This document shows positions 1,911-26,062 of a DNA stretch of 26,574 nucleotides, in pieces (position 1 is the stretch's first letter; each line of letters opens with the position of its first letter). Source of the stretch: a virus; the IMG/VR virus record IMGVR_UViG_3300030329_004786, positions 1 to 26,574 of that record, one strand, 5' to 3'. Position numbers and translations under genes: made by a program. The notes beneath the pieces were generated by a model. The model saw only the letters and a list, made by a program, of their open reading frames with translations, was not told the DNA's origin and did not search any database.

Positions 1911-1935
1911 TATTGTTTACAATGGTTAATTAAAT
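1911..1935. promoter_or_regulatory. Dispersed operator-like element, copy 1
   Basis: Core AATGGTTAATT at 1921-1931 preceded by the half site TGTTTAC. It lies between the VWA gene and the next gene downstream. The TAA stop of the VWA gene (1932-1930) is embedded in the core. One of nine intergenic copies in the window. Confidence 0.65.
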
Positions 1936-3342
1936 ATTATGCCCTGCAACTGGCAGGAACACATGCTCACCAGGGAACTGTGCATTCCATTGCGGATTCC
2001 ACTGGGTTGCTACCCACATGATTGGGTAGTCTTGTTCTTCAATCGGCATAGCACCCATGTCCGTAAGGAACATGACACACGCAGGGACATCATCCTCACC
2101 TCCATCTTCGACTACTCTATTGATGTAATCGATAGGAGCCTGAAAACAAGTCCCACCATTACCATGCCTTTCCCATTTGATGGGCATGTCATTTTTTGTG
2201 TAGTTCGTAACAGACAAGACTTCGTGATCAAACTGAATCACGACAATTTCAAGGTCATCTACTGGATGGTGTACAATGACATCCTCGAATACCTTGAAGA
2301 AAACCCTGTCTTCACGAACAGAAACAGACCCAGACATATCTCCGCAGATATAAATCTTGCCCATCTCCATACCTCCTAAGCTCGGCAAATACCATTTGCG
2401 ATTATATTGAAGTAACCGCTTTTTAGGCTTTGCCCAATCAGGCTCAGATTTGGCTGGACGCTCCATGAACTCTTTCAAGACTTCGTACACATCAATAGGG
2501 GCTTTTCTTACAGCCTCTACAGCACGTATCGTCTTAACAGAGCCTTGTCCATGCATCTTAGCACCTTCAGTTGCACGAACGACTACGCTAGTCCAATTAT
2601 CGAACTCTTCCTGATAATCCTCAGGCTCAACGACTGATTCTTCAGGAACATATTCGTAGTCTTCAATTTCCATGGCTTCTTGAGGCTCCCCAGCATCAGA
2701 TTGCTCGTCAGCTTTCTGCTCTTCTTCCTTCTTCGACAGCTCCTTGACATCAGGTGGGGCGTCATGCACTTCACCACTATACTTTGAGGAGTCTTCGAAA
2801 AGCTCATCAATGATCTCTTCTTCGGACTTTGCCTGCTGAGTATTGTCTTGGGACTGCCCACCTCCTGGTTGGCTCTGATTCCCACTCTGTCGTGGATCTT
2901 TCCCCTGCTTAATCTCTGAGAGCAAGATGTCGTATATCTCCTCTGCTGTAAGCTTGAAGAATCGCTCATCCAACAACGCATCCTTAGGAACGTCAAAGCC
3001 TTCCTGATAAAGCAAAGCGTTGTCAGCATAGTCACAAGCTACATTCCAAAGCTTGTGGTCACGATTACCACGACGTATGTGGTGTAAGAGCATAGGATGG
3101 TTGATCTCGTGCATGAGAAAGAAATCTACATGCGCCTGAATCAGACCAGCTATGAAGGCTGGGTTAAACGCTAGATAAACTCCGTTTACCCATCCCGTGG
3201 GGTGATTCCAATCAACCTTAAGCGTCAGTTTCTCATAAAAAATCTGAGCTAAGACTGGGAATCTTGAGATGAGGTAAGCAATGGAGAAATTGATTTTCTC
3301 CTGAGCTATCCGCAGCGTTTTTGCCTTGGTTTCTTCATCCAT
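1930..3342 (-). CDS. DUF2201-like protein: HExxH metallopeptidase-like domain plus VWA domain
   Basis: 470 residues from ATG 3342, chosen because GGAG lies 6 bases upstream; an in-frame ATG four codons earlier overlaps that site. Residues 1-145 match the DUF2201 N-terminal pattern: MHEINHPMLLHH (HEINH at 78-82) and WNVACDYADN at 99-108, the zincin-like signature of this family. Residues about 150-246 are a low-complexity Q/G then strongly acidic linker. The C-terminal part is a VWA-like fold with MIDAS residues visible: DMSGS 335-339, Thr398 in NGGTC, Asp428 in LTDMG. Such proteins partner MoxR-type AAA+ ATPases, and one is encoded upstream at 7181-8458. Metal binding is inferred from motifs; target unknown. 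Confidence 0.85.
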   Translation of the reverse strand: MDEETKAKTLRIAQEKINFSIAYLISRFPVLAQIFYEKLTLKVDWNHPTGWVNGVYLAFNPAFIAGLIQAHVDFFLMHEINHPMLLHHIRRGNRDHKLWNVACDYADNALLYQEGFDVPKDALLDERFFKLTAEEIYDILLSEIKQGKDPRQSGNQSQPGGGQSQDNTQQAKSEEEIIDELFEDSSKYSGEVHDAPPDVKELSKKEEEQKADEQSDAGEPQEAMEIEDYEYVPEESVVEPEDYQEEFDNWTSVVVRATEGAKMHGQGSVKTIRAVEAVRKAPIDVYEVLKEFMERPAKSEPDWAKPKKRLLQYNRKWYLPSLGGMEMGKIYICGDMSGSVSVREDRVFFKVFEDVIVHHPVDDLEIVVIQFDHEVLSVTNYTKNDMPIKWERHGNGGTCFQAPIDYINRVVEDGGEDDVPACVMFLTDMGAMPIEEQDYPIMWVATQWNPQWNAQFPGEHVFLPVAGHNI

Positions 3343-3360
3343 AAAAAACTCCATTCAAAA

Positions 3361-3417
3361 GGGCGTAATTGCCCATTGAGGGCACTGGAAATCAATACCC
3401 TCTAGCGCAACACGCTA
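3361..3417 (-). other. Three tandem small hairpins in the VWA gene leader
   Basis: GGGC-6 nt-GCCC (3361-3374), GAGGG...CCCTC (3378-3402) and TAGCG-5 nt-CGCTA (3403-3417) follow one another between the operator-like element and the ribosome site of the VWA gene. The same GGGC/GCCC hairpin with a near-identical loop recurs at 10401-10414. No U-run follows. Confidence 0.6.
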
Positions 3418-3443
3418 TGTTTACAATGGTTAATTAAGTAAAC
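3418..3443. promoter_or_regulatory. Dispersed operator-like element, copy 2
   Basis: Core AATGGTTAATT at 3425-3435, bracketed by the inverted repeat GTTTAC (3419-3424) and GTAAAC (3438-3443). The stop codon of the 116-residue gene lies in the core. This is one of the most symmetrical copies and lies upstream of the VWA gene. Confidence 0.7.
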
Positions 3444-3784
3444 TTAGGAAGCTGATGGTCTTCGAGAAAAGCATCCACCTGAACTTCTACTTCGTCCGCT
3501 TGGATCTCTTCAATAAACTCTTCGTCTGCACCTTCCCTAAGTTGTTTGATAACTTCTTTCTGCATTTCCAGAATATGCCTTGCCTTCATAAGCAGAGCCT
3601 CTTCGCTATTACACTCTTGGAGAGGTTTAGTATCAGGCTCATATTCTAAAGGCGCATTCACCATACCCTTTAGCTCAGCTAACTTTGTAAGTAGCTTGGT
3701 CTTGGTATAGTTGTAATGCATTAAGCTTTCTTTTCTTAAAAACTCATGAATCAGTTCGATTTTATGAGTGTTGCTTTGAATCAT
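3434..3784 (-). CDS. Hypothetical acidic, helix-rich protein
   Basis: 116 residues; the C-terminal half is Glu-rich (EEFIEEIQADEVEVQVDAFLED) and probably helical. ATG 3784 overlaps the stop of the upstream gene as ATGA and has AGGAGG 8 bases before it, so the start is firm. No known family recognised. It is the last gene before operator-like element copy 2. Confidence 0.7.
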   Translation of the reverse strand: MIQSNTHKIELIHEFLRKESLMHYNYTKTKLLTKLAELKGMVNAPLEYEPDTKPLQECNSEEALLMKARHILEMQKEVIKQLREGADEEFIEEIQADEVEVQVDAFLEDHQLPKFT

Positions 3785-4360: not shown

Positions 4361-4384
4361 GAGTCTCCTTATGAAGGGTTATCC

Positions 4385-4594
4385 TTAAAGAAACAGAAAG
4401 GTTTTAGGGTTGAAGTTTTCAGCTTCTTCCATAAAAACCTTCTCTTGAATCTCACAATAACCATCATACTCAAGATCATTATCGATGAATGAGTCAAGAC
4501 GATCATGTATTATCTGAGCATTTTTCTGATCACGGAAAACATAGGTGTCTACGCCATGCCTATGCTCCCATACAACTACCCATATTTTTTTCAT
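4385..4594 (-). CDS. Hypothetical small protein
   Basis: 69 residues starting MKKIWVVVWEHRHGVDTYVF, with TTGGAG 7 bases before the start. A beta-hairpin-like N-terminus followed by a helix with HDRLDSF is seen, a pattern common in small phage proteins of unknown role. It starts 2 bases after the upstream gene ends. Confidence 0.65.
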   Translation of the reverse strand: MKKIWVVVWEHRHGVDTYVFRDQKNAQIIHDRLDSFIDNDLEYDGYCEIQEKVFMEEAENFNPKTFLFL

Positions 4595-4596
4595 AA

Positions 4597-4863
4597 TTAC
4601 TCCAACTTCATGGTTAATTGATTGGGGTCATACTCACAATATTCAGGTAGTGGTGGGGCGAACTGTTTTTTCAGCTCGTCAAGCCACACCTGATATGGGT
4701 AGTAGTTCCTCATAGTGAACGGATAGAACTTTAAGCTGACAAACTTTCGGGCTTCATCGAATTTACCCTCTTCCACCAGCTTAATCACTCTTGCATCCGT
4801 TTTTGCTTCAGTGATAGTTGCTTTCGCAAGATCACGCCAAGTTTCTTTAGCCATTTTGTACAC
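4597..4863 (-). CDS. Conserved-looking small phage protein of unknown function
   Basis: 88 residues if the GTG at 4863 is used, 85 if ATG 4854 is used (MAKETWRDLAKATITEA). Neither has a clear Shine-Dalgarno, and both lie inside or next to the 3' end of the HTH gene, so coupling is likely. The segment MRNYYPYQVWLDELKKQ resembles short phage proteins I have seen with a YPYKVW-type motif, but no function is known to me. The 3' end contains ATGGTTAATTG, a coding match to the operator core. Confidence 0.65.
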   Translation of the reverse strand: MYKMAKETWRDLAKATITEAKTDARVIKLVEEGKFDEARKFVSLKFYPFTMRNYYPYQVWLDELKKQFAPPLPEYCEYDPNQLTMKLE

Positions 4864-5023
4864 GGGTTTTTTCTATCATTTTTTCGAAAGCCCTACGTGT
4901 TATGTAAAGTTTTCTGTTTGGTCTAAACGCTTCCAATTTGCCTTCATTTATCCATCTTCTTACAGTATGTGGTGTTACTTTAAGTTCTGAAGAAATGCTT
5001 TGGACAGTGTTAAAATCTTTCAT
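4847..5023 (-). CDS. Excisionase-like small helix-turn-helix protein
   Basis: 58 residues from ATG 5023, chosen because GGAG sits 6 bases upstream. Nearly the whole protein fits the excisionase / MerR-like HTH_17 family: TVQSISSELKVTPHTVRRWI, a wing with GKLEAFRPNRKLYI, and a final helix. Such proteins bind DNA as excision factors or as small regulators. It lies about 9 kb from the integrase, in the leftward cluster. Whether it is the excisionase or a regulator cannot be told from sequence. Confidence 0.8.
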   Translation of the reverse strand: MKDFNTVQSISSELKVTPHTVRRWINEGKLEAFRPNRKLYITRRAFEKMIEKTRVQNG

Positions 5024-5024
5024 C

Positions 5025-5255
5025 TTAGACTCCATTCTTTAATGGGAAATAACGACATGGCGTCCATTGCCTATCGTAATTTTCTAATCTGTCGGAGAAT
5101 ATCGCTCCTTTCCAACTTTTCGCACTTAACATTGAGTCAGTCCAAACTAGGATTTTGTCTGACTTCATAATGTTTTTAATTTCAAGTGCGTAAAGTTTTC
5201 CATTGCGATCCACAACAGCGTATTTAAGTGATAATGACCTATCCAAGATAGTCAT
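5025..5255 (-). CDS. Hypothetical small protein
   Basis: 76 residues; ATG 5255 overlaps the upstream stop as ATGA and a GAGGAGGA purine run lies just before it inside the upstream gene. Begins MTILDRSLSLKYAVVDRNGK; Lys- and Trp-containing, soluble. No family recognised. Confidence 0.65.
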   Translation of the reverse strand: MTILDRSLSLKYAVVDRNGKLYALEIKNIMKSDKILVWTDSMLSAKSWKGAIFSDRLENYDRQWTPCRYFPLKNGV

Positions 5256-5533
5256 TCATCCTCCTCCTGTTCATCCATTTTTTCGTATGCGCCCCAATCC
5301 TCATGCGCTGTAATCCAACCTAGCAAGTGATCCTTGGTGGCCCTTGCTCGCTGTTCAGCATCAGCACAACCATAATCATTCGCGATTTCACGCAGTTGAT
5401 CTTCAGTCATGTTGCACAAGACATTAAGCCTGTTAATATTTTTTTGAAGCGGTGAGACTAATGGGAGAGAACGCATTGCGTCACTCGTCATCATACGTCC
5501 TTGCGCATCAGCCAAAATATTTAAATCGTTCAC
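5252..5533 (-). CDS. Hypothetical protein with acidic C-terminus
   Basis: 93 residues starting with GTG 5533, which overlaps the upstream TGA as GTGA; AAGGAG lies 6 bases before it. A helical middle part (NMTEDQLREIANDYGC) has a SAP-like look but is not a clear match. The C-terminal EQEEDE is encoded by the purine run that serves the next gene. Confidence 0.65.
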   Translation of the reverse strand: MNDLNILADAQGRMMTSDAMRSLPLVSPLQKNINRLNVLCNMTEDQLREIANDYGCADAEQRARATKDHLLGWITAHEDWGAYEKMDEQEEDE

Positions 5534-6078
5534 AAAATCTCCTTACCGGCTACGAGATTCATGATTTCTGCTGCTTCAGCATACGTCCCTGCGACTGCAA
5601 GTTTGATCCTTGCGCCACTAAACGGGTCTATGGAAGCTTCACGCTCTGCCTGTATTGAACCAACAAGCTTTGTTTGGCATTTGAAAGCTCGATCAATCTC
5701 AGTACTTGCACCATAAGATTGACCAACATGGACTTGCCAATTTCCTGAATGCGCTTTTTCGTCTTCAATAAAACGTCCTTGCGAATCGACGCCATTTTTC
5801 GCTAATACAAGAAAGCAAGCTTCTATGCTGGCAACTAATCCATTGATGTCTTTTAAAGCACTTTGAATCTCAGGATTATTGTCAACGTACTCAGATTTTA
5901 GCTTATCGATATTATGCGATCTTTGATTAAGCGCTAAAGTTGTCCTACCTTCAACCAACTGATCAAATTCCTTTAATAGAATCTTTGTGTGACCCTGATT
6001 CAGCTTTTTGTCACGATCAGTAGGGATCTGGGCTAAGGCGTTTTGGGTTTGTTCTGAAACCATTAATTCTGTACTCAT
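5530..6078 (-). CDS. Hypothetical protein
   Basis: 182 residues from ATG 6078 (MSTELMVSEQTQNALAQ), with GGAG in the shared block ATGGAGTTTATTATG. Predominantly helical at the N-terminus, with a more globular C-terminal half. No match to RecT, Beta or SSB families is visible, although its place in an early cluster with a YqaJ nuclease would suit a recombination partner. Preceded by a structured leader. Confidence 0.7.
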   Translation of the reverse strand: MSTELMVSEQTQNALAQIPTDRDKKLNQGHTKILLKEFDQLVEGRTTLALNQRSHNIDKLKSEYVDNNPEIQSALKDINGLVASIEACFLVLAKNGVDSQGRFIEDEKAHSGNWQVHVGQSYGASTEIDRAFKCQTKLVGSIQAEREASIDPFSGARIKLAVAGTYAEAAEIMNLVAGKEIL

Positions 6079-6109
6079 AATAAACTCCATATTTAGGATT
6101 TAGGGTTAC

Positions 6110-6159
6110 GGCTTAACTAACAGCCAGTGGGAGCACTCTTGAGGAATGCTCCCTAAGCC
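6110..6159 (-). other. Nested hairpin leader before the 182-residue gene
   Basis: GGCTTA (6110-6115) pairs with TAAGCC (6154-6159) around an inner 7-bp stem GGGAGCA (6129-6135) / TGCTCCC (6147-6153). A small alternative stem GGCT/AGCC (6110-6125) also exists. It fills the gap between two leftward genes and lacks a U-run on the minus strand. Confidence 0.55.
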
Positions 6160-6161
6160 TG

Positions 6162-7145
6162 TCAGTTCATGTCATGTCTAATCTGAATCTCATTCAGCTT
6201 GAGCAAGACATCGTCTGTCTGGTCTTTGATGATCTCACGAGATAGCTGACCACCATCAAGAATGTCTTCTTTGGTGATTGTGCCATTCATCGTTATTTCT
6301 TTGAGATCTCTATGGACTTCAGCAAGATCAGGGTCATCGTCAAAATTAAAACCTTCAAACCCGATGGTTTTGTCATTCAACGCTTCGATCATGGTTTCGT
6401 GAAACACAGCGTAACCATCCACTCTAACCTTGCCCTCTTTGAGCATTGACTTGTTAACCTTGCCCACAACGTCTTGGAGGATTTGGATAAACTTTTTCTT
6501 GTATAATTTACCTTGGGAATCAGCTTCAGCTTTTGCACTATCATGCAAACGCTTTTTCATTTCCTTAGGCAAGTCATCCATCTTCAACCATGTAGACGCT
6601 GCTGGGAGGCACTCAATACTAAAATCCATGCTTATCTCTCTTCTGACTTCTTCAGCAGATTTGTAATGTCCACTAATATCGTTCCAGATTTTTGAGTAAA
6701 CACGCCTAGCATTATCAAATTGCTGAGGATATAAATCCTTGAAAAAGACATCTGCTAGTTGAGCTATGCCATGCTGTCGATCACGCATCAAATCATCCCA
6801 TGCTTTGCCATCTGGTGTGCCTAAACCCGCAAGGTGTCTGGCACTCAGAATGTCAACATTTGGAATACCTGAAGGAATAACACGCTGGTTGTGTAGAGAA
6901 CGCGTCTTCCTCAAATGAGACAAAATGGGCTGGTATGATTCTTTGGTGAACATCCAGATAGTCCGCTCAGACGTTGCATCCCCGTTATCAAACGTATCAG
7001 GGATTTCGTCATTATTGAGCTTAGAAGCAACATTTTGTTTCAACTTAATCTTATGCTTCGTGTTGTGAGTAAAAAGACTCACACGTGCAGCAGCCTCCAT
7101 AAGTTGTTTGTGCTTCTTTTTAAGTATATCAGTCATATCATACAA
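6162..7145 (-). CDS. Hypothetical protein next to the MoxR-like ATPase, possibly DUF3150-like
   Basis: 327 residues; AAGGAG lies just before ATG 7145, with an alternative ATG three codons later. Mostly helical and charged, with segments such as YPQQFDNARRVYSKIWNDIS and a long Lys-rich helix. In many plasmids and phages a DUF3150-type protein accompanies a MoxR-like ATPase and a VWA protein, and the size, position and central Trp/Arg helix would fit, but I cannot confirm homology. It lies directly downstream of the ATPase, separated by an operator-like element. Confidence 0.7.
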   Translation of the reverse strand: MYDMTDILKKKHKQLMEAAARVSLFTHNTKHKIKLKQNVASKLNNDEIPDTFDNGDATSERTIWMFTKESYQPILSHLRKTRSLHNQRVIPSGIPNVDILSARHLAGLGTPDGKAWDDLMRDRQHGIAQLADVFFKDLYPQQFDNARRVYSKIWNDISGHYKSAEEVRREISMDFSIECLPAASTWLKMDDLPKEMKKRLHDSAKAEADSQGKLYKKKFIQILQDVVGKVNKSMLKEGKVRVDGYAVFHETMIEALNDKTIGFEGFNFDDDPDLAEVHRDLKEITMNGTITKEDILDGGQLSREIIKDQTDDVLLKLNEIQIRHDMN

Positions 7146-7154
7146 CTCCTTTGT

Positions 7155-7175
7155 AGATAATTAACCATTTTCAGA
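7155..7175. promoter_or_regulatory. Dispersed operator-like element, copy 3
   Basis: Core AATTAACCATT at 7159-7169 in the 35-base gap between the AAA+ ATPase stop and the start of the 327-residue gene. The flanking half sites are degenerate (TTTTCAGAC), so this copy is weaker than others. Confidence 0.55.
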
Positions 7176-7180
7176 CTAAA

Positions 7181-8458
7181 TTACGCAGCCTGCTTGAAAG
7201 TATCGATCTTGTGATACTTCTGTTTGAACTCGACATATCCTGAGTCTGGGTCACAAAGAATGGATTCAATTCCTTTATTCCTTTTAGCTGACCCTTCCAG
7301 GTTTTTAGCAAACACAATAGGAAGCTCAGGTGAAAACTGGGTTAATCTCCCGATCCATTTGAATATTTCACGAGAAGTCTTAGCTTTGAAATGCATCCCA
7401 GTCGACAGCGCCCCAATCGCCATGTACAAAATCCCCATGCGATAAGACCCGTCTTCAGGTAAAGGAGCATTATCCCCATCAGCCTTTACAGCGTTATAAT
7501 CAATCTCCTGCTTTAGAAGCTTTAGCGTTTGAATAAATTCTTCTGCTGGGCCTGGGCCTATACACCCATGAGCCATTGGCTTGAAGACGAAATCATACGC
7601 TTCTTGTCCTAAATATTGACAAGTAAGGAAGATTTTGGAGAAATACTCGACTGACCGGTTGGTAGAATACGCATAATCTTCCTGCTTGATACGCTCGGTA
7701 TCGAGAGTATTCATCAAGCTAGGCCGGTTTGACAGCCAACTGGCTATACTGGAGTTGACACCCTTTGGACAATCCCAATCAGGTATCTTTGTAAGATCGA
7801 TTGGAATGTCTCCTGGGTAGAGCTTGAAGTCTTGCTGAGCAAGTTCAGCCCATGAAATAGCACAGCGCCCACCATCAGACATCTGACCATGCATTTCAGC
7901 TAAACACCCATCATCCAAGTAAATCCAGCACCTCCTGTTAGCCTCTGCTGGTGTAGCCTTATCCCCAAGACCTTTGTGGCGTGACATATTATCAGAACAT
8001 ATCTGACTCCATCCATCACCAAGATAATGCTCACCAATCCTACGCTCAGCAAGAGATTGCATGATTGCTTTACGGATGTCTTTACCACCCATAAAGTATT
8101 CTGACCAATTGACCATACCAACGCCTTTCTCAGGATACATAGCAAAGCGTTTGGTTGTTGTGTAGGCTCTATCCTTATTTAAATAGGGATGATCTGGCCC
8201 AGCTACTCCATCATCAAAGAGACCTTTAATGTCAATCCCTTCATGTTGAGCAGCCCTGATGTCGGCATTACCGAAGTTACGATAATGTTCCCAGTCAGCA
8301 CACTGCTCACGGAATGCTTCGGTTACAGTCACTGCCATACCATCTTTTCCTTGACCAGGAGCAGACAAAGTATGCAGGTTAGTCCTTGCACCGTGATTAA
8401 CAACCATCGCTGCCATGGCTTCCCAATGGTCAACGTGATAATAGTCTTCTATTGACAT
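7181..8458 (-). CDS. MoxR-like AAA+ ATPase
   Basis: 425 residues from ATG 8458, chosen for the GGAG 8-9 bases upstream. Walker A-like loop SAPGQGKDG at 32-40; a Walker B position at 112-122 reads GVGMVNWSEYF, keeping Glu120 but with Ser where Asp is usual. RRIGEHYLGDGWSQICSDN at 139-157 matches the MoxR region leading to sensor 1, and ANRRCWIYLDD at about 173-183 fits the arginine-finger strand. The C-terminal part has the NRPSLMNTLD segment typical of the MoxR lid. Family members are chaperone-like ATPases working with VWA proteins; the VWA partner is at 1930-3342. The unusual Walker B may mean altered hydrolysis. Confidence 0.8.
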   Translation of the reverse strand: MSIEDYYHVDHWEAMAAMVVNHGARTNLHTLSAPGQGKDGMAVTVTEAFREQCADWEHYRNFGNADIRAAQHEGIDIKGLFDDGVAGPDHPYLNKDRAYTTTKRFAMYPEKGVGMVNWSEYFMGGKDIRKAIMQSLAERRIGEHYLGDGWSQICSDNMSRHKGLGDKATPAEANRRCWIYLDDGCLAEMHGQMSDGGRCAISWAELAQQDFKLYPGDIPIDLTKIPDWDCPKGVNSSIASWLSNRPSLMNTLDTERIKQEDYAYSTNRSVEYFSKIFLTCQYLGQEAYDFVFKPMAHGCIGPGPAEEFIQTLKLLKQEIDYNAVKADGDNAPLPEDGSYRMGILYMAIGALSTGMHFKAKTSREIFKWIGRLTQFSPELPIVFAKNLEGSAKRNKGIESILCDPDSGYVEFKQKYHKIDTFKQAA

Positions 8459-8485
8459 AGAAAAACTCCATATTTGTATAAAAAA

Positions 8486-8563: not shown

Positions 8564-8836
8564 CTAATTCCGTTTAATAGCCATTTCTTTCAGCTCGGAT
8601 TCCGAAACATCAAAGAGATATTGCATGTTCTCAATGATGTTTTTCCGAAGTGAATCAGTCTGGTTAAGCCTCGTCCAAGAATAACCATCCAACTTGGGCT
8701 TAGGCTTTTGAGTTGCTGTGTCTTTGTACTTAGGAGTATTTCTGACGGCAGCATCCATTGTCTTCTGATCTTCAGAACGCAGGAGATCAAAAGTACTTTG
8801 AATCACATAACGAGCTTCTATTGTTAATTCAGCCAT
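8564..8836 (-). CDS. Hypothetical small protein
   Basis: 90 residues starting MAELTIEARYVIQSTFDLLR. Helical ends with a Lys/Pro-rich centre (TATQKPKPKLDGYSW). The start at 8836 has only a weak GGA upstream and lies 18 bases from operator-like copy 4. First gene of its transcription segment, upstream of the ATPase. No family recognised. Confidence 0.65.
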   Translation of the reverse strand: MAELTIEARYVIQSTFDLLRSEDQKTMDAAVRNTPKYKDTATQKPKPKLDGYSWTRLNQTDSLRKNIIENMQYLFDVSESELKEMAIKRN

Positions 8837-8848
8837 ATTACATCCATT

Positions 8849-8873
8849 GTATGTAATGGTTAATTATTGACAT
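8849..8873. promoter_or_regulatory. Dispersed operator-like element, copy 4
   Basis: Core AATGGTTAATT at 8855-8865 with a right half site ATTGACAT (8866-8873) and left TGTATGT. Upstream of the leftward 90-residue gene. The TTGACA could serve as a -35 for a rightward transcript, with AGTAAT 16 bases on, but no rightward gene follows. Confidence 0.65.
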
Positions 8874-8992: not shown

Positions 8993-9535
8993 CTATATGG
9001 TGTCCTCAAATAGGATGGGGCTTGCTGGTTGAGGTGGGAGTACATCGATTTTATTACCCTGTGCAAGGTAATCTTCGATTGCACTTTGTATTTCTGAATC
9101 ATGAGATTTCACTGACTCAAAATTCTGTACATAACTTTCCCAGAATTTCTTAATAGCCTGTGCTACTGAGACCTCGATGGATTCGTGATGATATCCAGTG
9201 TCAGGGTCGTATGATTCATTGAAGAATTGACTCGCCAACTGCATGATTTCATCACGTACCATTTTTGAATTCATGCCAGTACGATTAACCAACAGAGTAA
9301 TAATACCTTCCTCTGCCTTCTTACCATCACCCTGGTTGATAGTAGTAAGACTGGTTAACGTGTGATAGCCCATTGCATCACCCTCAAACGTGAAACCTTC
9401 GAACAATTTGTCCACAACCTCAGGGTCTGAGTAGATCTGCATTCCCTGTTCGGCTTCAATAGCTTGAGCAGTGATTTTGGCTGTTGTTGTACCGAGTCGT
9501 GCTTCGTCAAAAGCACTCATTTTGTTTTCAGTCAT
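8993..9535 (-). CDS. Hypothetical protein
   Basis: 180 residues from ATG 9535 (MTENKMSAFDEARLGTT), chosen for the block ATGGAGTTATTATG. Mixed helical protein with an acidic surface; segments YHTLTSLTTINQGDGKKAEE and FFNESYDPDTGYHHES are conserved-looking but match nothing I recognise. It has its own structured leader and operator-like element upstream, so it is probably an independent transcription unit; a broad gap follows its stop. Confidence 0.7.
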   Translation of the reverse strand: MTENKMSAFDEARLGTTTAKITAQAIEAEQGMQIYSDPEVVDKLFEGFTFEGDAMGYHTLTSLTTINQGDGKKAEEGIITLLVNRTGMNSKMVRDEIMQLASQFFNESYDPDTGYHHESIEVSVAQAIKKFWESYVQNFESVKSHDSEIQSAIEDYLAQGNKIDVLPPQPASPILFEDTI

Positions 9536-9555
9536 AATAACTCCATGTCTGAATC

Positions 9556-9594
9556 GCTGGAATAACCCAGCATTTTGGTGACGGAATAGCCACC
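9556..9594 (-). other. Two-hairpin leader before the 180-residue gene
   Basis: GCTGG-AATAAC-CCAGC (9556-9571) and GGTG...CACC (9577-9594, extendable with a G-U pair on the minus strand). The first stem's loop AATAAC/GTTATT resembles the loops of the GGGC/GCCC hairpins at 3361 and 10401. Confidence 0.55.
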
Positions 9595-9603
9595 TACACT
9601 GGG

Positions 9604-9627
9604 ATGTAAACAATTAACCATTTACAC
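9604..9627. promoter_or_regulatory. Dispersed operator-like element, copy 5
   Basis: Core AATTAACCATT at 9612-9622 with TGTAAAC on the left and TTTACAC on the right, giving GTAAA/TTTAC symmetry. It lies in the gap upstream of the leftward 180-residue gene, before its hairpin leader. Confidence 0.65.
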
Positions 9628-11134: not shown

Positions 11135-11167
11135 AAAAAAAAAGGGGACAAGCCGAAGCCTGTCCCC
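11135..11167 (-). terminator. Rho-independent terminator of the GC-rich gene
   Basis: On the minus strand a 10-bp stem (GGGGACAGGC paired with GCTTGTCCCC, one G-U) closes a TTCG tetraloop and is followed by nine T. It lies 7 bases beyond the stop at 11175. This is the clearest intrinsic terminator in the window. Confidence 0.93.
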
Positions 11168-11174: not shown

Positions 11175-11708
11175 TTAGCTTAACCTGCCAAGTCTTTTAC
11201 CTGTTGCTACCCAACGATTCTCGTTGTAAACCTCGGACTCTTTCTTCATGAGTTTCCGAGCTTCAGCGATCTCGTCAGGAGATATGCCAGCCTTTTCAGC
11301 GAGCTTCATGAACTCACCTGCGTCCTTGCAGGCCATGATGTCCTCGACTGCACGCGACTGGCACGCACTGAGCTGGTAAGACGCACGCATCTCTACGAGA
11401 CCCTGGCTGAGAAGCCCACGCTCTCCAAACTTCGTTTGGCGGAGCTTGTTGTCCTCAACGCTCGCATTGTGCTTGCTAAGCGCCATCGAGCGCTCGAGAA
11501 TCTCGCGCACTACGTCCACGTACTCCGGTGTGTCTGTGCCACCAGACGCAAGGACTGCGTCGAAAGCGTGTCCGAAGGACTCGGGCGCTTGTAGTGGCTC
11601 AGTGGTCACGCGCAGGAAGTCAAGACGACCTGTGGACTCGCTGACCTGTGCCTGACGAGTGGAACGATGCGCGCGCAGGATTGCGCGTCTTTCTTGTGCT
11701 GAATACAT
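11175..11708 (-). CDS. Hypothetical helical protein in a GC-rich island
   Basis: 177 residues; AAGGAG precedes ATG 11708. Mostly alpha-helical with many Arg and Glu; no domain recognised. Two sample 60-base lines (11461-11520 and 11581-11640) are 36/60 and 37/60 G+C, against 24/60 for 9121-9180, so base composition differs sharply from neighbours. It has its own leader and a strong terminator, so it forms a single-gene unit at the boundary between the two arms. It may be a late addition to the genome, and independent expression in the lysogen is possible. Confidence 0.75.
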   Translation of the reverse strand: MYSAQERRAILRAHRSTRQAQVSESTGRLDFLRVTTEPLQAPESFGHAFDAVLASGGTDTPEYVDVVREILERSMALSKHNASVEDNKLRQTKFGERGLLSQGLVEMRASYQLSACQSRAVEDIMACKDAGEFMKLAEKAGISPDEIAEARKLMKKESEVYNENRWVATGKRLGRLS

Positions 11709-12092
11709 AACGACTCCTTATGTGGGAGTGTGCGCTGCGCTTGTGGTGAACACCTGCTGACATGGCAACGCTGAACGTAGCTGGTGCTGTCACCATCATC
11801 CCATGACCCCAGAATTAAGCCTCGCTTAGCACTGTACCGAAGGTAGCCGGCAATCACGGACGCAGACACACATCGTGTTCGCTCAAGACCCCCCCCACCC
11901 GTCACACGCATACCCACCCAATATATATATGGGACTCCTAGTCAAACGTACCCCACCCCATTTTTATAGAATTACCTCCCCTAAAATTGGCTAACCCCCC
12001 TATTTCCAACGGTGAATCACACTTGCAATTATCCGTATTGGTTGTATTGTATGTAATTAACCATTACCAACAATATTAAGCAAGACTTATTT
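11709..12092. other. Gene-free divergent control region with C/G-run tract
   Basis: No gene is supported here. 11709-11880 continues the high-GC composition of the adjacent gene and forms a long leader for it. 11889-12000 holds a string of C-runs on the plus strand (for example CCCCCCCCACCC, ACCCACCC, ACCCCACCCC, CTCCCC, CCCCCC), so the minus strand has repeated G tracts with quadruplex potential. Between them lie an (AT)5 stretch at 11921-11930 and TTGACT on the minus strand (11945-11940), a poorly spaced promoter candidate (14 bases to TATATT). Operator copy 6 lies at the right end. Confidence 0.5.
12050..12073. promoter_or_regulatory. Dispersed operator-like element, copy 6
   Basis: Core AATTAACCATT at 12055-12065, left TGTATGT, right ACCAACAAT. 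It sits 28 bases before the first rightward gene, so it probably controls the start of the rightward block. Confidence 0.65.
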
Positions 12093-12272
12093 ATGGAGTT
12101 CTGGATCAAGTACGCAAAAATCCTCCCGAATTGGGAGTTGGGCAGGAAGACTCATGGTGTTCGTCACTCAGAGCCAGATTTGAAATATTTTAAGAATGAA
12201 GAGGATATGTATGAGTTCCTATCAGAGATAGCCAACGGGTTTATTATTCTCGACAGGTCAGAACGTGCCTGA
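12093..12272 (+). CDS. Small hypothetical protein, first gene of the rightward block
   Basis: 59 residues from ATG 12093 (MEFWIKYAKILPNWELGRKT), ending in TGA that overlaps the GTG start of the next gene by 8 bases. Several charged helical segments, no family recognised. There is no good Shine-Dalgarno before it; the sequence ATGGAGT at its start is the same block that elsewhere serves as a ribosome site. Confidence 0.55.
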   Translation: MEFWIKYAKILPNWELGRKTHGVRHSEPDLKYFKNEEDMYEFLSEIANGFIILDRSERA

Positions 12273-13674: not shown

Positions 13675-14170
13675 CCAGAAAAAGCAAAAAACTAAGACAA
13701 ATCTTGCCTTATTGAAGGTGGATTATGAGGGTGGAATTATGACCCGTGCTGAAATTGCAGAGAAGCATGGGATTAATAAGAGCACCCTGTATCGTCATGC
13801 CGTCAATAACACATGGCAGTTCGGTAAGAATCAGGAAAAAGCATTAACAGCAATGCAGACAGCCATGGTGAGGCGTTTAGGGGAGCGCAGAGCTGAGGTG
13901 AATGACCAGCATTTAGTAGAATTAAATGAGATTAAAGAGGATTTGTTCAAAGCTACTGAAATAAAGGAGGTCAAAATCCTATCGGATAAAACTGAAGCTT
14001 TACTGAAGATCATACGTGGTGAGCGTTTAGCTCTGGGACTCCCCAGCGATTACAAATATGTCGAGCAGAAGAACGAGACGACGTTTAAAGTCGAGGATGC
14101 TTTAAGGGAACTGGATACAATTAATGGGGATTATACAGAAGTGAGTGATGATGCTTCACTCCCGGCATAA
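13649..14170 (+). CDS. Terminase small subunit
   Basis: 173 residues, overlapping the upstream gene by 26 bases. Residues 31-56 form a helix-turn-helix (TRAEIAEKHGINKSTLYRHA) typical of the DNA-recognition domain of small terminase subunits. A long helical middle (ERRAEVNDQHLVELNEIKED) would oligomerise, and the acidic C-terminus (SDDASLPA end) would meet the large subunit. The large subunit is not adjacent but follows the integrase cassette at 16398, so integration genes interrupt the packaging module. Confidence 0.75.
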   Translation: MKQKIVAVNQKKQKTKTNLALLKVDYEGGIMTRAEIAEKHGINKSTLYRHAVNNTWQFGKNQEKALTAMQTAMVRRLGERRAEVNDQHLVELNEIKEDLFKATEIKEVKILSDKTEALLKIIRGERLALGLPSDYKYVEQKNETTFKVEDALRELDTINGDYTEVSDDASLPA

Positions 14171-14180
14171 CGGTAGATGA

Positions 14181-14234
14181 ACGGAAGATCAGACTCTCTG
14201 GTATGTATTTTTGTAAGTGTTTGAAGGGAAGATA
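14181..14234 (+). repeat. Left-side arm-type repeats of attP (candidate integrase sites)
   Basis: ACGGAAGATC at 14181-14190 and the variant AGGGAAGATA at 14225-14234, in the same orientation as two more copies on the other side of the core. Direct repeats flanking a tRNA-like core next to an integrase gene are the expected layout of arm-binding sites. Confidence 0.6.
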
Positions 14235-14316: not shown

Positions 14317-15465
14317 TCATTTCTTCTTTGACGGAAGATCAACGGAAGATCGCCATTGTAATTCATCCAAAGCCTTCTTGTTTTCGAGGCTTTTAGAGTT
14401 GGCGTATTTTCGGGTTGTTGTAACATCTTTGTGTCTCAAGATCCCCTGCACTGTCACTATGTTAATTCCGTTTTTTAGTAGTCTTGTGCAAACAGTGGCC
14501 CGTATCCCGTGAACTGGTTTCGGGATTTCAGTCATTCCTATGTCTTTAGCGTGCTGTTTTATAGCACGAGCGACATCTGCTGACCGCTTATAAGCCCTAT
14601 CTCCTCTACCATTGTCACAAAACCAACGCTCATGTTCACCTCTCGAGGATAAATCCTCAAGAAGAAACTTGTAGAGAGCTTCAGATATATCAATACCCCC
14701 GTCCTCACGGTTGCCTTTTATACTAAAACCCTTCTTTTCACGGAGCAATAGACTGCGATCCCCCAGTTTAATGTCCTGAAGGCGTAGGTAGAATATCTCA
14801 GAGCAGCGCATTCCAGTTTCCATAGCCACCACAAAAACCCTTAATTGAGCCAAGCGATGAAATCTATACCTGAAATGCGCCTTTGCGTTGGAGATGCTTA
14901 AGACGATTTTCTCTATAATAGAGTAAAGCTCGTCTTCTGTGTAAATTCGCGGGTCTTTTTGGGTAACTTTTGGGAATTTAATGAAAGGTCGGTGCTCAAG
15001 AAGCTTCGCCTCGACACAAAACCCAAAAAATGCCCTTAATTGCCTTAATTGCGAGTGAACTGTCGCTTTTGCAAGACCCTTTTTCTCCAGAACTCTTCGG
15101 TAACTTAGAGTTTCTCGTATAGATATTTCCTCCAGTTTGACGTTACCCGTCACTTTAAGGAATCTTCTTCCCGTTAACTCGTATAGCTCGAGAGTTCTGG
15201 GGTCTTCAATGCTCTCATACCATAAATTGAGAGCTTCTTTTACTCTGGTATCTCCAAGTCCTGGTCGTCTAGGCTTGTTTTGCAAACGTGCAGCAACAGC
15301 TTCCCATCTCGAGATAAGGTAATCGTAATCCTCCTCTGGACATTCACTGTATGTTGCGATAACCCGCCTAGAAGCTCTTTTATCGGGGTCTTCACTGGAA
15401 CGGAAATACCCAATCCAAGCCTTGTCCCTTTGGTCATACCCCCAAAGCTTTCTTGGAGTCGGCAT
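14317..15465 (-). CDS. int: Tyrosine-family site-specific integrase
   Basis: 382 residues. N-terminal arm-binding region about 1-70, core-binding SAM-like domain about 70-165, catalytic domain from about 170. Catalytic residues visible: Arg220 in METGMRCSEI, a Lys near 244-250, His319 and Arg322 in VHGIRAT, His345 in ILRHKDVTT and Tyr354 in TRKYAN. It would recombine attP with a host tRNA-Leu gene. The start at 15465 overlaps a short upstream ORF by 32 bases. Its last codons read through two tandem ACGGAAGATC repeats, which may be its own binding sites. Confidence 0.93.
   Translation of the reverse strand: MPTPRKLWGYDQRDKAWIGYFRSSEDPDKRASRRVIATYSECPEEDYDYLISRWEAVAARLQNKPRRPGLGDTRVKEALNLWYESIEDPRTLELYELTGRRFLKVTGNVKLEEISIRETLSYRRVLEKKGLAKATVHSQLRQLRAFFGFCVEAKLLEHRPFIKFPKVTQKDPRIYTEDELYSIIEKIVLSISNAKAHFRYRFHRLAQLRVFVVAMETGMRCSEIFYLRLQDIKLGDRSLLLREKKGFSIKGNREDGGIDISEALYKFLLEDLSSRGEHERWFCDNGRGDRAYKRSADVARAIKQHAKDIGMTEIPKPVHGIRATVCTRLLKNGINIVTVQGILRHKDVTTTRKYANSKSLENKKALDELQWRSSVDLPSKKK
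14331..14351 (+). repeat. Right-side arm-type repeats of attP inside the 3' end of int
   Basis: Two copies of ACGGAAGATC, at 14331-14340 and 14342-14351, 11 bases apart, about one helical turn. They encode part of the integrase C-terminus and match the copy at 14181 across the attP core. Confidence 0.6.
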
Positions 15466-15640
15466 GTTCGTCCATAAATTTGGTCACTGTAGCCTTGATA
15501 TACTCTTGGGTAAGAGCGATGTGCGAATGACCTAATAATTTCTGAAGTCTTCTGACGTTTTTATTGATTTGAATTGAGAGTGATTCTTCAAGCCCACAAT
15601 CGCTTTCAAGCATCTGTCTTAAATGTCGGTAAGTAAGCAT
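15434..15640 (-). CDS. Short ORF resembling the C-terminus of a tyrosine recombinase
   Basis: 68 residues with a purine-rich site (AAGGGAAGG) 2 bases before ATG 15640. Residues 30-52 read RRLQKLLGHSHIALTQEYIKA, which matches the LGH...T..Y end of tyrosine recombinases including a Tyr in the nucleophile position; TYRHLRQM near the start could be a degraded HxxR box. The catalytic Arg I region is absent, so it cannot be an active recombinase. It ends 32 bases inside int in another frame. It may be a remnant of a replaced integrase or a coupled regulator peptide. Confidence 0.6.
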   Translation of the reverse strand: MLTYRHLRQMLESDCGLEESLSIQINKNVRRLQKLLGHSHIALTQEYIKATVTKFMDEHADSKKALGV

Positions 15641-15913: not shown

Positions 15914-15934
15914 AATAGTTAATTGTTGACAAAG
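15914..15934. promoter_or_regulatory. Dispersed operator-like element, copy 7, with possible promoter
   Basis: Core variant AATAGTTAATT at 15914-15924 followed by GTTGACAA. TTGACA at 15926-15931 followed after 17 bases by CATAAG could be a sigma70-type rightward promoter, but that would place transcription start inside the 61-residue ORF, favouring the GTG start at 15980 for the next gene. Confidence 0.55.
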
Positions 15935-15939: not shown

Positions 15940-16125
15940 ATGAAGGGTCATAAGTGGAATAACTTCTTAAGGAGGTTTCGTGTTAAGACAAAAGAAAGCG
16001 GGAAGATTTACTCGAGGAAAAAGGAAAGGTATGAGACCAGCAGGGAAGAAGACTACGATGAACAAACAGGAGTCGAATTATGCGACTCATCTGAGACACT
16101 TAACGGAGACCTCACAGATCGTTGA
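15940..16125 (+). CDS. Possible small basic/acidic ORF overlapping the DUF1064 gene
   Basis: 61 residues (MKGHKWNNFLRRFRVKTKES...), with AAAGGA 5 bases before ATG 15940. It overlaps the N-terminal coding part of the DUF1064 nuclease in another frame. It has no recognised family and could be a leader peptide or a chance frame; the ribosome-site match is the only support. Confidence 0.3.
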   Translation: MKGHKWNNFLRRFRVKTKESGKIYSRKKERYETSREEDYDEQTGVELCDSSETLNGDLTDR

Positions 16126-16397: not shown

Positions 16398-18134
16398 ATG
16401 AAACGACTCCAAGACCATGAGACTTATTTCCAGTATTGTTTAAAAATTCAGGAGTTCGGGACTAAAAACCTTATCCCGTTCTCCATGAATCCCATCCAAA
16501 AGATTCTACACTCCGTTGCCCAAAAGCAGTCTCAAGAACAAGAACAGGTAAGGATTATTGTCCTTAAAGCCCGTCGTGCAGGGATTTCGACCTATATTCA
16601 GGCTCGAATGTTCAAGTACGCTGCCACGAACTTCAATAAAAGGTGTCATATTACAACGCACAGTAAAGACACCACCCAGGAGATGTTCAACATGGCAAGG
16701 ATGTACTCTGAAAACTATCCCAAGCATATCAAGCCAGATATGTACTATTCAGGAAAATCCGAGATGTGGTGGGGTGCTAAAGATGGTGGAGGGTTGAATT
16801 CAGCCTATTCTCTGTCAACAGTCGAGGGATCGGAAGTGCGTGGGGCTGCTATTGATATGCTTCACTGCTCCGAGGTCGCAAGTTGGGGGAATAGAGCAAG
16901 AGAATATGCAACAGGTTTAATGAATTGTGTGGTGACTGGTCATAACACAGAAATTTGGATCGAAAGCACAGCTCAGGGTGTTGGCAACTTTTTTTATAAG
17001 GAATATTGGAGAGCGGATAAAGGAGAGTCTGCGTTTCAGACAGTATTCTTTCCCTGGTATATGATGCGTGAATACAAAATGGACTTTGTCGATGACAATG
17101 AAAAAGACAAGTTTATGGATTCACTTGGGAAGGAGGAAAGATATGGAGGTAAAGAGGAAAGGGATTTAATTGAAAGATCGGTTTCTTTTGACACTGAAGA
17201 CGGTGAAGTAAGGTTTGCGGTAACTCCTGAGAACATGAAGTGGAGACGCTACATGATTGACGGGAACTGCCAGGGCGACCTTAATATCTTCCACCAGGAA
17301 TACCCCAGCTATGCTCGTGAAGCATTTGTCGCTTCTGGTCGGAGTGCATTTGACAGCAATGCCCTTTCTCAGATGTATTTTGAATCAGAAGAATTCCGCA
17401 AGCTTGTCCCTGGACGGAAGTTTGCCGTGCCTGTTAATGAGTTTAAGGACGTTCACGGCATGAGTGGGATGCGTTATTACTTAGACCCGAACAAGGATGC
17501 TGAATTTATGGTGTGGAATCCCCCTCGTGATGGGAGGCAATACCGGATTGGGGTCGATGTTGCCGAGGGTATTCTTGTAGATGGGAAGAGTGATTTCAGT
17601 GTGGTAACTGTCATGGATACTGAAGCTTATGAGGAAGTCGCAACTTGGTCTGGTAAGATCGATCCCGACCTATTGGCTTGGGTTTGTACAACAATAGCTC
17701 GTTGGTACAAAAACGCCTTATTATGTGTGGAAAACAACAACCACGGGTTAGTTACCTTAAAATTCCTTCAACAGATTCACCATTACGACAATCTGTATAT
17801 GGAAAAAGCCCTCGATGAGAAGGGACAACGGACAAAGAAAAAGTTGGGATTTAGTACTAATCTTCGGACAAGACCCTTAATTCTCGACCATCTTCGCCAG
17901 CTTATAAGAGAAAGAGTTCTTGTAGTACACTCAAAAGAAACAATTGATGAGCTTCAGACTTTCGTAATACATCCTAATGGTAAAGAAGCAGCGCAAGCGG
18001 GATCGCACGATGACAGAGTTATGTCTTTAGCACTTGCTTGCTACATGATTCACATGTACCCGTTTGAAGAAACACAGCCTTCTTACTTCCCGACAACCAG
18101 GGGTGGAAATAGAGAAATATATGTAGGGGCTTGA
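16398..18134 (+). CDS. terL: Terminase large subunit
   Basis: 578 residues from ATG 16398, chosen for GGAG close upstream; a TTG-initiated frame 23 codons longer overlaps the DUF1064 gene. ATPase: Walker A variant LKARRAGIST at 56-65, Walker B IDMLHCSEVASW at 152-163 with Glu159, and coupling motif IESTAQG at about 188-194. Nuclease: GVDVAEG with Asp387, Glu445 in CVENNNHG, and GSHDDRVMSLALA with Asp538 and Asp539. It powers DNA into proheads through the portal at 19180-21288. Length and motif order are normal for the family. Confidence 0.93.
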   Translation: MKRLQDHETYFQYCLKIQEFGTKNLIPFSMNPIQKILHSVAQKQSQEQEQVRIIVLKARRAGISTYIQARMFKYAATNFNKRCHITTHSKDTTQEMFNMARMYSENYPKHIKPDMYYSGKSEMWWGAKDGGGLNSAYSLSTVEGSEVRGAAIDMLHCSEVASWGNRAREYATGLMNCVVTGHNTEIWIESTAQGVGNFFYKEYWRADKGESAFQTVFFPWYMMREYKMDFVDDNEKDKFMDSLGKEERYGGKEERDLIERSVSFDTEDGEVRFAVTPENMKWRRYMIDGNCQGDLNIFHQEYPSYAREAFVASGRSAFDSNALSQMYFESEEFRKLVPGRKFAVPVNEFKDVHGMSGMRYYLDPNKDAEFMVWNPPRDGRQYRIGVDVAEGILVDGKSDFSVVTVMDTEAYEEVATWSGKIDPDLLAWVCTTIARWYKNALLCVENNNHGLVTLKFLQQIHHYDNLYMEKALDEKGQRTKKKLGFSTNLRTRPLILDHLRQLIRERVLVVHSKETIDELQTFVIHPNGKEAAQAGSHDDRVMSLALACYMIHMYPFEETQPSYFPTTRGGNREIYVGA

Positions 18135-18145
18135 CAGGATTTGAA

Positions 18146-18168
18146 AAAATGGTTAATTGTAAACATAT
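18146..18168. promoter_or_regulatory. Dispersed operator-like element, copy 8
   Basis: Core AATGGTTAATT at 18148-18158 followed by the half site GTAAACATAT. It begins 12 bases after the terL stop and precedes a strong hairpin and the run of very small genes. A TTGACA lies at 18131-18136 just upstream. Confidence 0.65.
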
Positions 18169-18185
18169 TGCTCTTACGAGCACTC

Positions 18186-18230
18186 ACAGCCCTTGGAGGC
18201 TTCCCCTGACCTTCCCCCTCTAAGGGCTGT
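18186..18230 (+). other. 14-bp leader hairpin occluding a ribosome site
   Basis: 18186-18199 pairs with 18217-18230 (ACAGCCCTT/AAGGGCTGT plus G-U and GAGG/CCTC), 17-nt loop. The 3' arm contains AAGGG, the only Shine-Dalgarno candidate for ATG 18235. No U-run follows, so it is not a normal terminator. Confidence 0.65.
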
Positions 18231-18234
18231 ACCA

Positions 18235-21439: not shown

Positions 21440-21440
21440 T

Positions 21441-22205: not shown

Positions 22206-22206
22206 T

Positions 22207-22227
22207 CTTCATCCTCATTGGGTGAAG
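22207..22227 (+). other. 8-bp hairpin between scaffold and capsid genes
   Basis: CTTCATCC pairs with GGGTGAAG (one G-U), loop TCATT; four T follow a few bases on. It may be a weak attenuator or an RNA-stability element at the 5' end of the capsid message. The gap also holds TTTTAACCATC, a poor match to the operator core. Confidence 0.5.
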
Positions 22228-22261
22228 ATACAATTTTAACCATCTACCTAATGAGGTATTT

Positions 22262-24119: not shown

Positions 24120-24571
24120 CAGGTGGATTAATATCTTCAGGTACTCACGGGGACGTTATCCGTGGAGATCATGTACAAACTGGTGGCAAGCTAAATACTT
24201 TTAAACGTGCAGGTACAGAGCCGGCAATGGTACTGGGAAGAGGCCAAGCTCCACCCGAAGGATGGGCAGTTATTGTGCTTGGTTTTGGAGACGATCAATC
24301 CGAAATGGGGCCATTAACTGTTTCTTTTAGGGATTGGACTATATCTATTCCGAGAAACGTCAGAGTCGCTGTCCCAAGAGGACATTTCAGCAACCTTTTA
24401 GGCTCAACTGAGACACGATACTTCCAGCCTCATGATGGCGCTCAACTGGTTGGGTACGATGTACATCGATACCCCATGCAAATCTTGCAGTGGCCTAAGG
24501 GATTTGGCAGACGAGTGAATGAGGAACAGGAAAAATCTAAAGCAAGGTATGATAAAATTGAGGTAGAATAA
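24110..24571 (+). CDS. Hypothetical virion-region protein
   Basis: 153 residues, GGAAAAA before ATG 24110, overlapping the preceding gene by 10 bases and the adaptor by 1. Gly-rich beta-type N-terminus (MAVAGGLISSGTHGDVIRGD) and a Lys/Glu-rich helical end. Place between capsid and adaptor genes suggests a head-tail joining or structural protein. No family recognised. Confidence 0.62.
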   Translation: MAVAGGLISSGTHGDVIRGDHVQTGGKLNTFKRAGTEPAMVLGRGQAPPEGWAVIVLGFGDDQSEMGPLTVSFRDWTISIPRNVRVAVPRGHFSNLLGSTETRYFQPHDGAQLVGYDVHRYPMQILQWPKGFGRRVNEEQEKSKARYDKIEVE

Positions 24572-25716
24572 TGCCCATTGACGTTGTCGAAGCAAGAAAC
24601 AGGGTAAAAGGGTTTCTTCAGGACAACACCTATACGCGTTGGACTAAGCATGAATTAAACATGTACCTTCAGCAGGCTGCTGAGGAGTTTGTTCGTCGTG
24701 TAGGGTTTCCTATAGTTTCTGTAGCAAGAACAACGTCTGCGTATTCAAGTCTGGTCTTTGCAGATACTCAAGGATATACCGCAGGTGAAACCATAACGGG
24801 GGCGACGACAGGAACTACCGCAACTGTTTACGATTCCCCTGATACCCTCCAAATCCGTTATTCTTCTGCTTCTGGAGTTGGCTTTGAAAAAGGCGAACAA
24901 ATAACAGGAGCATCCAGTGGATATTCTGCTTTAAATGTATCTCATCTACCAAACTATGAGTTGGATTTGCCTGAAACTATAGGGCAGGTCACTCATGTTG
25001 AAGCAGATGGGAGAGAAGTCCCAATACTTACAGAATCAGAAATGCGGTATATGGCTGCATCAGGAGGGCTTTGGGATGTTGCAGACACGAATCTTACGAC
25101 CACAAGGATTTTTGGGACAACGAGTTCTTTAGCACCTAAATGGAGAGAAACCACAGGGAGTTTAAGAGCTGTTGTTCTTACCTCTTCTACTTCTGACAAG
25201 TTCAGACTCTACCCTGCACCTTCTGGATCACAGCAATTAGTGATATATGGGGTTTACAGACCGCTTCACGCATCCGACATAATTCCTTATCAATTCGTCA
25301 CTACAGGCGTGACAACGAAATCTTTAGAATATCCTGAGTACCAATACTCACCAGGGTCTACTACTCAATTTATTTCAGATGATGAGGGGCTTAGCTATCT
25401 TTTAAGTGAAGATTCAAGCAATCTCACATTATACAGTGGGACTACTGCTTCAACTGTATACCCATTGAGAAGAGGTGCTGACTTTAGGACTGAATATAAT
25501 ATTGATCGTACATACATGGATGTACTGGTTTATGGTGCATTGGAGAAAGCTTACTTAAAAGAACACGATCTTAGAAATGTAGAGAAAGCAGATTATTTTA
25601 GGGTCAGAAAAGAAGGCATGACTCAGGAAGCATTAAGAAATGAGGCCTTAAATTCAGCCTCAATTTCTGGTGGGGTTAATTATAATCGTCTAAAAGTTAG
25701 ACTGAAAGCGAAGTAA
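24571..25716 (+). CDS. Head-tail adaptor protein (podovirus SU10/P22-gp4-like) with inserted domain
   Basis: 381 residues. The N-terminus VVEARNRVKGFLQDNTYTRW and ELNMYLQQAAEEFVRRVGFP resembles phage adaptor proteins that bind the portal ring, and the C-terminal part (YGVYRP, helices to KAYLKEHDLRNVEKADYFRV) fits the same fold. Residues about 64-130 look inserted and hold two copies of a GxTxGExITGAxxG-type repeat (GYTAGETITGATTGTTATV and GFEKGEQITGASSGYSAL). A further Thr/Ser-rich stretch lies at about 260-300. The domain call is moderate. Confidence 0.68.
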   Translation: MPIDVVEARNRVKGFLQDNTYTRWTKHELNMYLQQAAEEFVRRVGFPIVSVARTTSAYSSLVFADTQGYTAGETITGATTGTTATVYDSPDTLQIRYSSASGVGFEKGEQITGASSGYSALNVSHLPNYELDLPETIGQVTHVEADGREVPILTESEMRYMAASGGLWDVADTNLTTTRIFGTTSSLAPKWRETTGSLRAVVLTSSTSDKFRLYPAPSGSQQLVIYGVYRPLHASDIIPYQFVTTGVTTKSLEYPEYQYSPGSTTQFISDDEGLSYLLSEDSSNLTLYSGTTASTVYPLRRGADFRTEYNIDRTYMDVLVYGALEKAYLKEHDLRNVEKADYFRVRKEGMTQEALRNEALNSASISGGVNYNRLKVRLKAK

Positions 25717-26039
25717 TGGCAGTAGCACTTAAAATACGAAGAGGGACAACTACCGAGCATTCCTCGTTTGTAGGTGAAGAGGGTGAAATTACAATTGAAA
25801 TACCCGTAGATGGGAGTGGTAATAAAATTTACGGTAACACCTCAAATCCCTGGACACTTAAGGTGCATGACGGGCAAACTTCTGGTGGGCATCCGTTGAT
25901 TGCGGGTAGTTCGCCATCTTTCAGTAACCCTACTATCAATCTTACCTCAGAATCATCTGGAGGAACTATCGATCTCCAACAAGATTACAGAACACGAGCC
26001 ATAAAAATGGCTATCGGGATAGGATCTGGGGATTTTTAA
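25716..26039 (+). CDS. Mtd N-terminal-like tail fibre module
   Basis: 107 residues. LKIRRGTTTEHSSFVGEEGE near the start and LKVHDGQTSGGHPL at about 48-61 match the small domain found at the N-terminus of major tropism determinant and many tail-fibre proteins, normally followed by a longer fibre. Here it stands alone with a 40-residue C-terminal tail. Start shares TAATG with the adaptor stop. Probably a tail or fibre attachment part. Confidence 0.72.
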   Translation: MAVALKIRRGTTTEHSSFVGEEGEITIEIPVDGSGNKIYGNTSNPWTLKVHDGQTSGGHPLIAGSSPSFSNPTINLTSESSGGTIDLQQDYRTRAIKMAIGIGSGDF

Positions 26040-26042
26040 TGA

Positions 26043-26062
26043 ATAATTAACCATTGTTGACA
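26043..26062. promoter_or_regulatory. Dispersed operator-like element, copy 9
   Basis: Core AATTAACCATT at 26045-26055 followed by GTTGACAT; the right half site ends 1 base before ATG 26064. It separates the Mtd-like gene from the next and is the only copy found within the structural cluster after terL. Confidence 0.65.

Follow-up and report, generated by a model that had tools for sequence, protein, structure and literature searches.

The 26.6-kb virus record IMGVR_UViG_3300030329_004786 (26,574 nt, analysed in its entirety and referred to below as the window) carries nine copies of an element that joins an 11-bp core, AATTAACCATT, lying in either orientation, to a polar tail that faces the downstream gene. 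Eight of the cores are exact and one, at 15914, has a single mismatch, just as a first-pass annotation of this DNA had listed them. Our preferred reading, offered tentatively, is that the copies are start-site modules of a regulator-dependent class of phage promoters, through which nine or more units would be switched on together. One phage-specific protein probably switches all nine gene units together. The annotation had offered two proposals, a set of targets for one regulator and a promoter class specific to the phage, and the element very probably is one or the other.

The nine sites stand sharply apart instead of heading a continuum: with a position weight matrix derived from the nine, they score 24–33 and the next best place 8.5. 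The pattern AAT-N5-ATT-N4-ACA likewise finds exactly the nine sites and no other place in the window. Enrichment over shuffled sequence is strong, with 0.88 sites expected at up to one mismatch after dinucleotide shuffling versus 10 found, and among 300 genomes simulated with a third-order Markov model, none had more than five copies of any 11-mer. A tenth match, with one mismatch at 4609, lies within a gene end, lacks the tail and is left out of the nine-copy count. All nine cores lie in the gaps between genes, as annotated, with 2-base overlaps of a stop codon at 1921 and 3425; such gaps account for 8.35% of the annotated region (1060–26423). Each copy stands upstream of a gene start, and the nine genes or gene groups headed in this way span both arms of the genome, including the structural (head) block.

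Aligned in the direction of the gene, the copies read AAT(TAACC or GGTTA)ATT-R-Y-N-N-A-C-A-W, with one AGTTA variant at 15914. The gene-side ACA (columns +15 to +17, counted from where the core begins) is present in all nine, whereas its mirror image, TGT, is found on the far side in only two. Ten gene-side columns hold 10.45 bits of information versus 2.99 bits for ten far-side columns, and the latter are no more informative than columns further out, that is, background. The interrupted palindrome TGTnnACAAT-GGTTA-ATTGTnnACA to which the flanks had been said to converge is therefore rejected as a full symmetric site. Of the better and poorer half-sites that the annotation described, only the one facing the gene is conserved, and the motif is polar. 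Among the 512 possible orientations of the nine sites, only four do at least as well as the gene-facing one, with differences confined to 8855 and 12055, where ACA tails occur on both sides. The core, by contrast, shows no preference relative to gene direction (5:4), in agreement with the earlier report of both orientations. Freedom of this kind is expected if a symmetric protein reads the core, and a tail on the gene side of every copy, without a regular counterpart opposite, supports a polar promoter module. The distance from tail to start codon is variable, from 1 to ~70 nt.

Five copies face genes on the minus strand. Copy 1 (1914–1931; core 1921–1931, tail GTAAACA) precedes a 65-amino-acid open reading frame (ORF) at 1705–1902 and a helix-turn-helix (HTH) gene at 1060–1692, and copy 2 (3418–3435; core 3425–3435, tail GTAAACA) precedes a VWA-like gene at 1930–3354. 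Three genes without assigned function follow copies 3 (7152–7169; GGTTA form in gene direction, tail ATCTACA), 4 (8848–8865; tail ACATACA, with a second ACA tail opposite) and 5 (9605–9622; GGTTA form, tail GTTTACA), at 6162–7136, 8564–8836 and 8993–9535, respectively. On the plus strand, copy 6 (12055–12072; tail ACCAACA, also with a second ACA tail opposite) lies in the gap from which the two arms diverge, ahead of the first right-arm gene, 12093–12272. Copy 7 (15914–15931; one-mismatch core of AGTTA form, tail GTTGACA) lies before a resolvase-like gene starting at 15940 or 15980, of which 15980, with a strong Shine-Dalgarno sequence, is the better start, and before the terminase gene. Copy 8 (18148–18165; GGTTA form, tail GTAAACA) is 3′ of the terminase gene and 5′ of the head-gene block, and copy 9 (26045–26062; tail GTTGACA) sits in a 24-bp gap immediately 5′ of 26064–26423, a later gene of the structural block.

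At copy 8, the element can be placed against a promoter that appears to be shared across the family. A TTGACA at 18131–18136 (plus strand), overlapping the terminase stop codon, is the likely −35 hexamer of this copy, and the core sits at the −10 position relative to it. Of 36 distinct contexts in the family, 21 have TTGACR near the terminase stop (the window and L009, a relative with 80% terminase identity, included), against 0.02 expected per context, and TANNNT usually lies 17–18 nt past it. Judged by these hexamers, many relatives would have a sigma-70 promoter after the terminase gene, and the core at 18148 likely overlies its counterpart. We found no consistent or fixed-register sigma-70 hexamers across all nine sites; a clear −35 is present only at 18148, which fits dependence of the other copies on a phage factor. 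Assigning the tail itself as −35 or −10 at every site was rejected, because the start codon of gene 26064 would then precede the start of the transcript.

What follows the tail is consistent with a transcript start near it. Clear leaders are longest at 3425, 9612 and 18148, and there strongly folded RNA begins directly after the tail: a short hairpin and then a 14-bp stem with a 17-nt loop at copy 8 (18166–18234, plus strand; fold z −5.6), three hairpins at copy 2 (3355–3417, minus strand; z −4.6) and a structured leader at copy 5 (9536–9604, minus strand; z −2.9). Most other copies have a start codon or Shine-Dalgarno sequence within ~20 nt. At copy 9, the start codon is 19 nt from the core start, so that the transcript starts there or before if the element drives gene 26064. 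Here relatives have a Shine-Dalgarno sequence (AGGAG), whereas the window has the element right next to the ATG, as would suit a transcript with a very short leader or none.

Conservation of the sites in related phages, listed by the first-pass annotation among its checks, is mostly absent. The exact core is missing from 15 portal-relative records and from further terminase-relative loci, no family locus repeats it, and k-mer counts in the relatives reveal no obvious substitute repeated element; each sibling contig spans at most one of the nine sites. The single homologous position is in L009, the nearest informative relative, where AATGCTTAATT, one change from the core, stands immediately past the terminase stop in the same orientation, corresponding to 18148. 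The shape of the leader is kept there (a short hairpin, then a 12–14 bp stem with a 17-nt loop) while its sequence is largely different. More distant relatives have AGGAGATTAATATG before the counterpart of gene 26064, and the post-terminase relatives L054–L080 have TANNNT as the −10 and no repeated element. Because relatives lack the repeated element at homologous positions, it looks like an addition of this lineage. A near-core at 6175 of L019, ~460 bp past the terminase stop and in a non-homologous place, was taken as chance. Just past the terminase stop of L067, L070, L071, L072 and L080, the likely −10 is covered by an inverted repeat of the type TATATCGT-AAA-ACGATATA, which looks like a separate operator of those relatives.

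Scans of virus collections used exact patterns, and absence elsewhere holds for those scans only. A 17-base pattern found three contigs in IMG/VR with one core each, and the window proteins had no match in the loci fetched from these three. At least 118 stretches contain a 14-base pattern; few of the 80 loci examined have extra copies, and the tail arrangement is not the same. No other virus in the pattern scans has the repeated set. An Rfam search gave no matches, and literature matches to the core string were unrelated as judged by their titles and abstracts.

We therefore propose that the copies act as polar control modules, each covering the region in which a phage transcription unit starts. 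A single factor specific to the phage, probably a two-fold symmetric dimer, would bind the 11-bp core AAT-N5-ATT either way round, and the gene-side RYNN-ACA tail, at or just before the transcription start, would set the direction. The transcript would start at or just after the ACA. By letting RNA polymerase start at otherwise weak promoters, the factor would activate at least nine units of both arms together, including the VWA-like gene, the resolvase-like gene with the terminase, the head genes and others.

Several points weigh against these activated promoter modules. The regulator, its symmetry, the start sites and activation rather than repression are all inferred. The diverged core of L009 has no ACA tail. 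In the window and in L009, the TTGACA shares bases with the terminase stop codon, but in others the hexamer lies ~20 nt beyond it, so its homology to the TTGACR of the relatives is likely, not certain. Finally, sigma-70-like scores are somewhat raised near the sites (mean 7.05 versus 4.81 at random places, p 0.0004), which would suit a repressor acting over ordinary promoters, even if the rise is inflated by the tail's own likeness to TTGACA.

Such a repressor is the rival that comes closest, nearly as plausible and sharing most of the anatomy. An immunity-type protein bound to the nine sites as operators or stoperators would silence both arms at once, blocking promoters at some sites and stalling RNA polymerase in short gaps at others. 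The window encodes an intact-looking tyrosine integrase of XerC/D type, on which grounds the phage may be temperate. Silencing would also account for sites in short gaps, some touching stop or start codons, across both arms and the structural block; the core at 18148, over the likely −10, would be in a classical operator position, and the raised sigma-70-like scores would follow. It fits less well with a core that has no fixed orientation to transcription, unlike L5-type sites (PMC9283540). The stoperator-like logic of the first-pass annotation thus stands as regards gap-confined sites over both arms and falls as regards orientation. A symmetric repressor would, moreover, leave the polar tail unexplained unless the tail belongs to the promoter, and none of the window's genes was recognised as encoding a repressor.

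The window does encode candidate regulators. A 210-amino-acid protein (1060–1692, minus strand) has a weak SinR/XRE-like HTH near its C terminus (PDB sequence E 0.4–0.8), and its gene belongs to the unit headed by copy 1, a point in favour of the repressor; its single-sequence structure model was unusable. A 62-amino-acid HTH_17 or excisionase-like protein is encoded at 4847–5035 on the minus strand (Pfam HTH_17 E 1.5e-10; TIGR01764). Next to the divergent gap, in a G+C-rich stretch, lies a lone 177-amino-acid gene (11175–11708), which ends in a terminator-like hairpin (11144–11167) stronger than any other in the left arm; its product has a weak SinI-like match (E 0.0086) and is a possible regulator.

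A variant of the promoter modules takes its cue from 12055, between the arms, and 8855, because both carry tails on the two sides. Here a symmetric factor would read the orientation-free core over the −10 and a separate 3-bp tail would alone set the direction, with either-way or two-way firing. We regard this form as rather unlikely.

The element could instead act at the level of mRNA or translation, like the start-associated sequences of Cluster K mycobacteriophages. Copies near start codons, and the absence of a Shine-Dalgarno sequence at some of the genes they head, speak for this, but the difference in Shine-Dalgarno usage is not significant (p 0.12), the tail stands at no fixed distance from the start codon and the core occurs on either mRNA strand, all of which make such a role improbable. 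About as improbable are promoters of a phage-encoded, T7-like RNA polymerase: the motif is near-invariant, polar, gap-confined and ahead of gene groups, but it is not one contiguous sequence of fixed orientation, as four of the nine copies have the asymmetric core centre turned around with respect to the tail, a reversal not expected of single-subunit polymerase promoters. PF00940 was unmatched in ten records (the window and nine relatives, including the 62-kb contig G011), a weak argument since the control search was also empty and the window genome is incomplete. Sites at which a phage tyrosine recombinase shuffles or captures genes between copies are more doubtful still. A near-invariant asymmetric centre at gene boundaries and an encoded recombinase related to XerC/D and to integron integrases recall such a system, but there are no inverted arms around the centre: just one flank is conserved, on either side of it, and the other is at background, unlike paired recombinase arms, and relatives devoid of the sites have a collinear right arm. 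Chance or base composition is refuted by the shuffled and simulated sequences described above.

The phage itself appears to be a member of an uncultivated marine group distantly related to HMO-2011. Its portal and terminase are similar to their counterparts in uncultivated contigs including G011 and in marine phages, the similarity to HMO-2011 and Roseobacter phages being distant, and the portal relatives closest to the window (72–92% identity) are contigs just 5–9 kb long. The nearest known sibling, L011, has a length of only 5 kb. Because G011 is 62 kb, over half of the phage genome is probably missing from the record, in which we looked for end repeats and found none. A search of genome contigs for the host gave no match. 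Directly upstream of the integrase, a 68-amino-acid ORF (15434–15640) is similar to the C-terminal end of XerC/XerD-type recombinases only and may be a relic of a second integrase. In the convergent gap by the integrase 3′ end, a 21-nt direct repeat (14170–14190 and 14331–14351, 90% identical) is possibly part of an attachment region. A DUF2201 VWA-like gene, a gene of unassigned function and an ATPase-like gene (1930–3354, 6162–7136 and 7181–8458) have counterparts in the same order at 4382–8350 of G011, a distant relative, at 24–26% identity, which suggests a conserved three-gene module.

Nine sharp sites offer a direct handle on when uncultivated marine phages of this group express their genes, and possibly on how a member with an integrase silences or awakens itself. 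The combination of a core free in orientation and a polar tail is unusual and predicts a symmetric regulator whose direction of action is set elsewhere. The repeated element itself is in no other virus of the scans; its arrangement resembles known phage control networks.

At L5-type stoperators, elongation is blocked by a bound immunity repressor of L5-like fold. The element shares with L5-type operators and stoperators its many near-identical short sites in small gaps genome-wide, near gene boundaries (here nine of nine in gaps), all presumably read by one phage protein. L5 sites of Cluster A mycobacteriophages are 13-bp, asymmetric, oriented with transcription and non-functional when reversed (PMC9283540; PMC6550527), whereas only the short tail follows transcription here. 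As its core is not oriented, we do not file the element as an L5-type stoperator, though it may work in a similar way.

The start-associated sequences of Cluster K (SAS/ESAS) are short repeats at the start codons of many genes, with unsettled function (PMC3203893; PMC12699233); nearly all SAS share one orientation (PMC3203893), and they are asymmetric 13-bp sequences outside structural genes. Both occur as short repeats ahead of start codons, but here the core flips, structural genes are included and the distance to the start is not fixed (1 to ~70 nt).

A functional parallel only is provided by the Lpa-dependent late promoters of P1, in which an inverted repeat at about −22 takes the place of the −35 beside a −10, and by the P1 C1 operators, both being dispersed sites of one phage regulator. 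Their sequences are unrelated, and the core here appears to cover the −10 instead. Closer to home, the post-terminase sigma-70 promoter predicted in L054–L080 occupies the same place in the genome and has the same TTGACR hexamer, but where those relatives have a TANNNT −10, the window has the repeated core. This comparison suggests how a phage lineage can swap sigma-70 promoters for a regulated class of its own.

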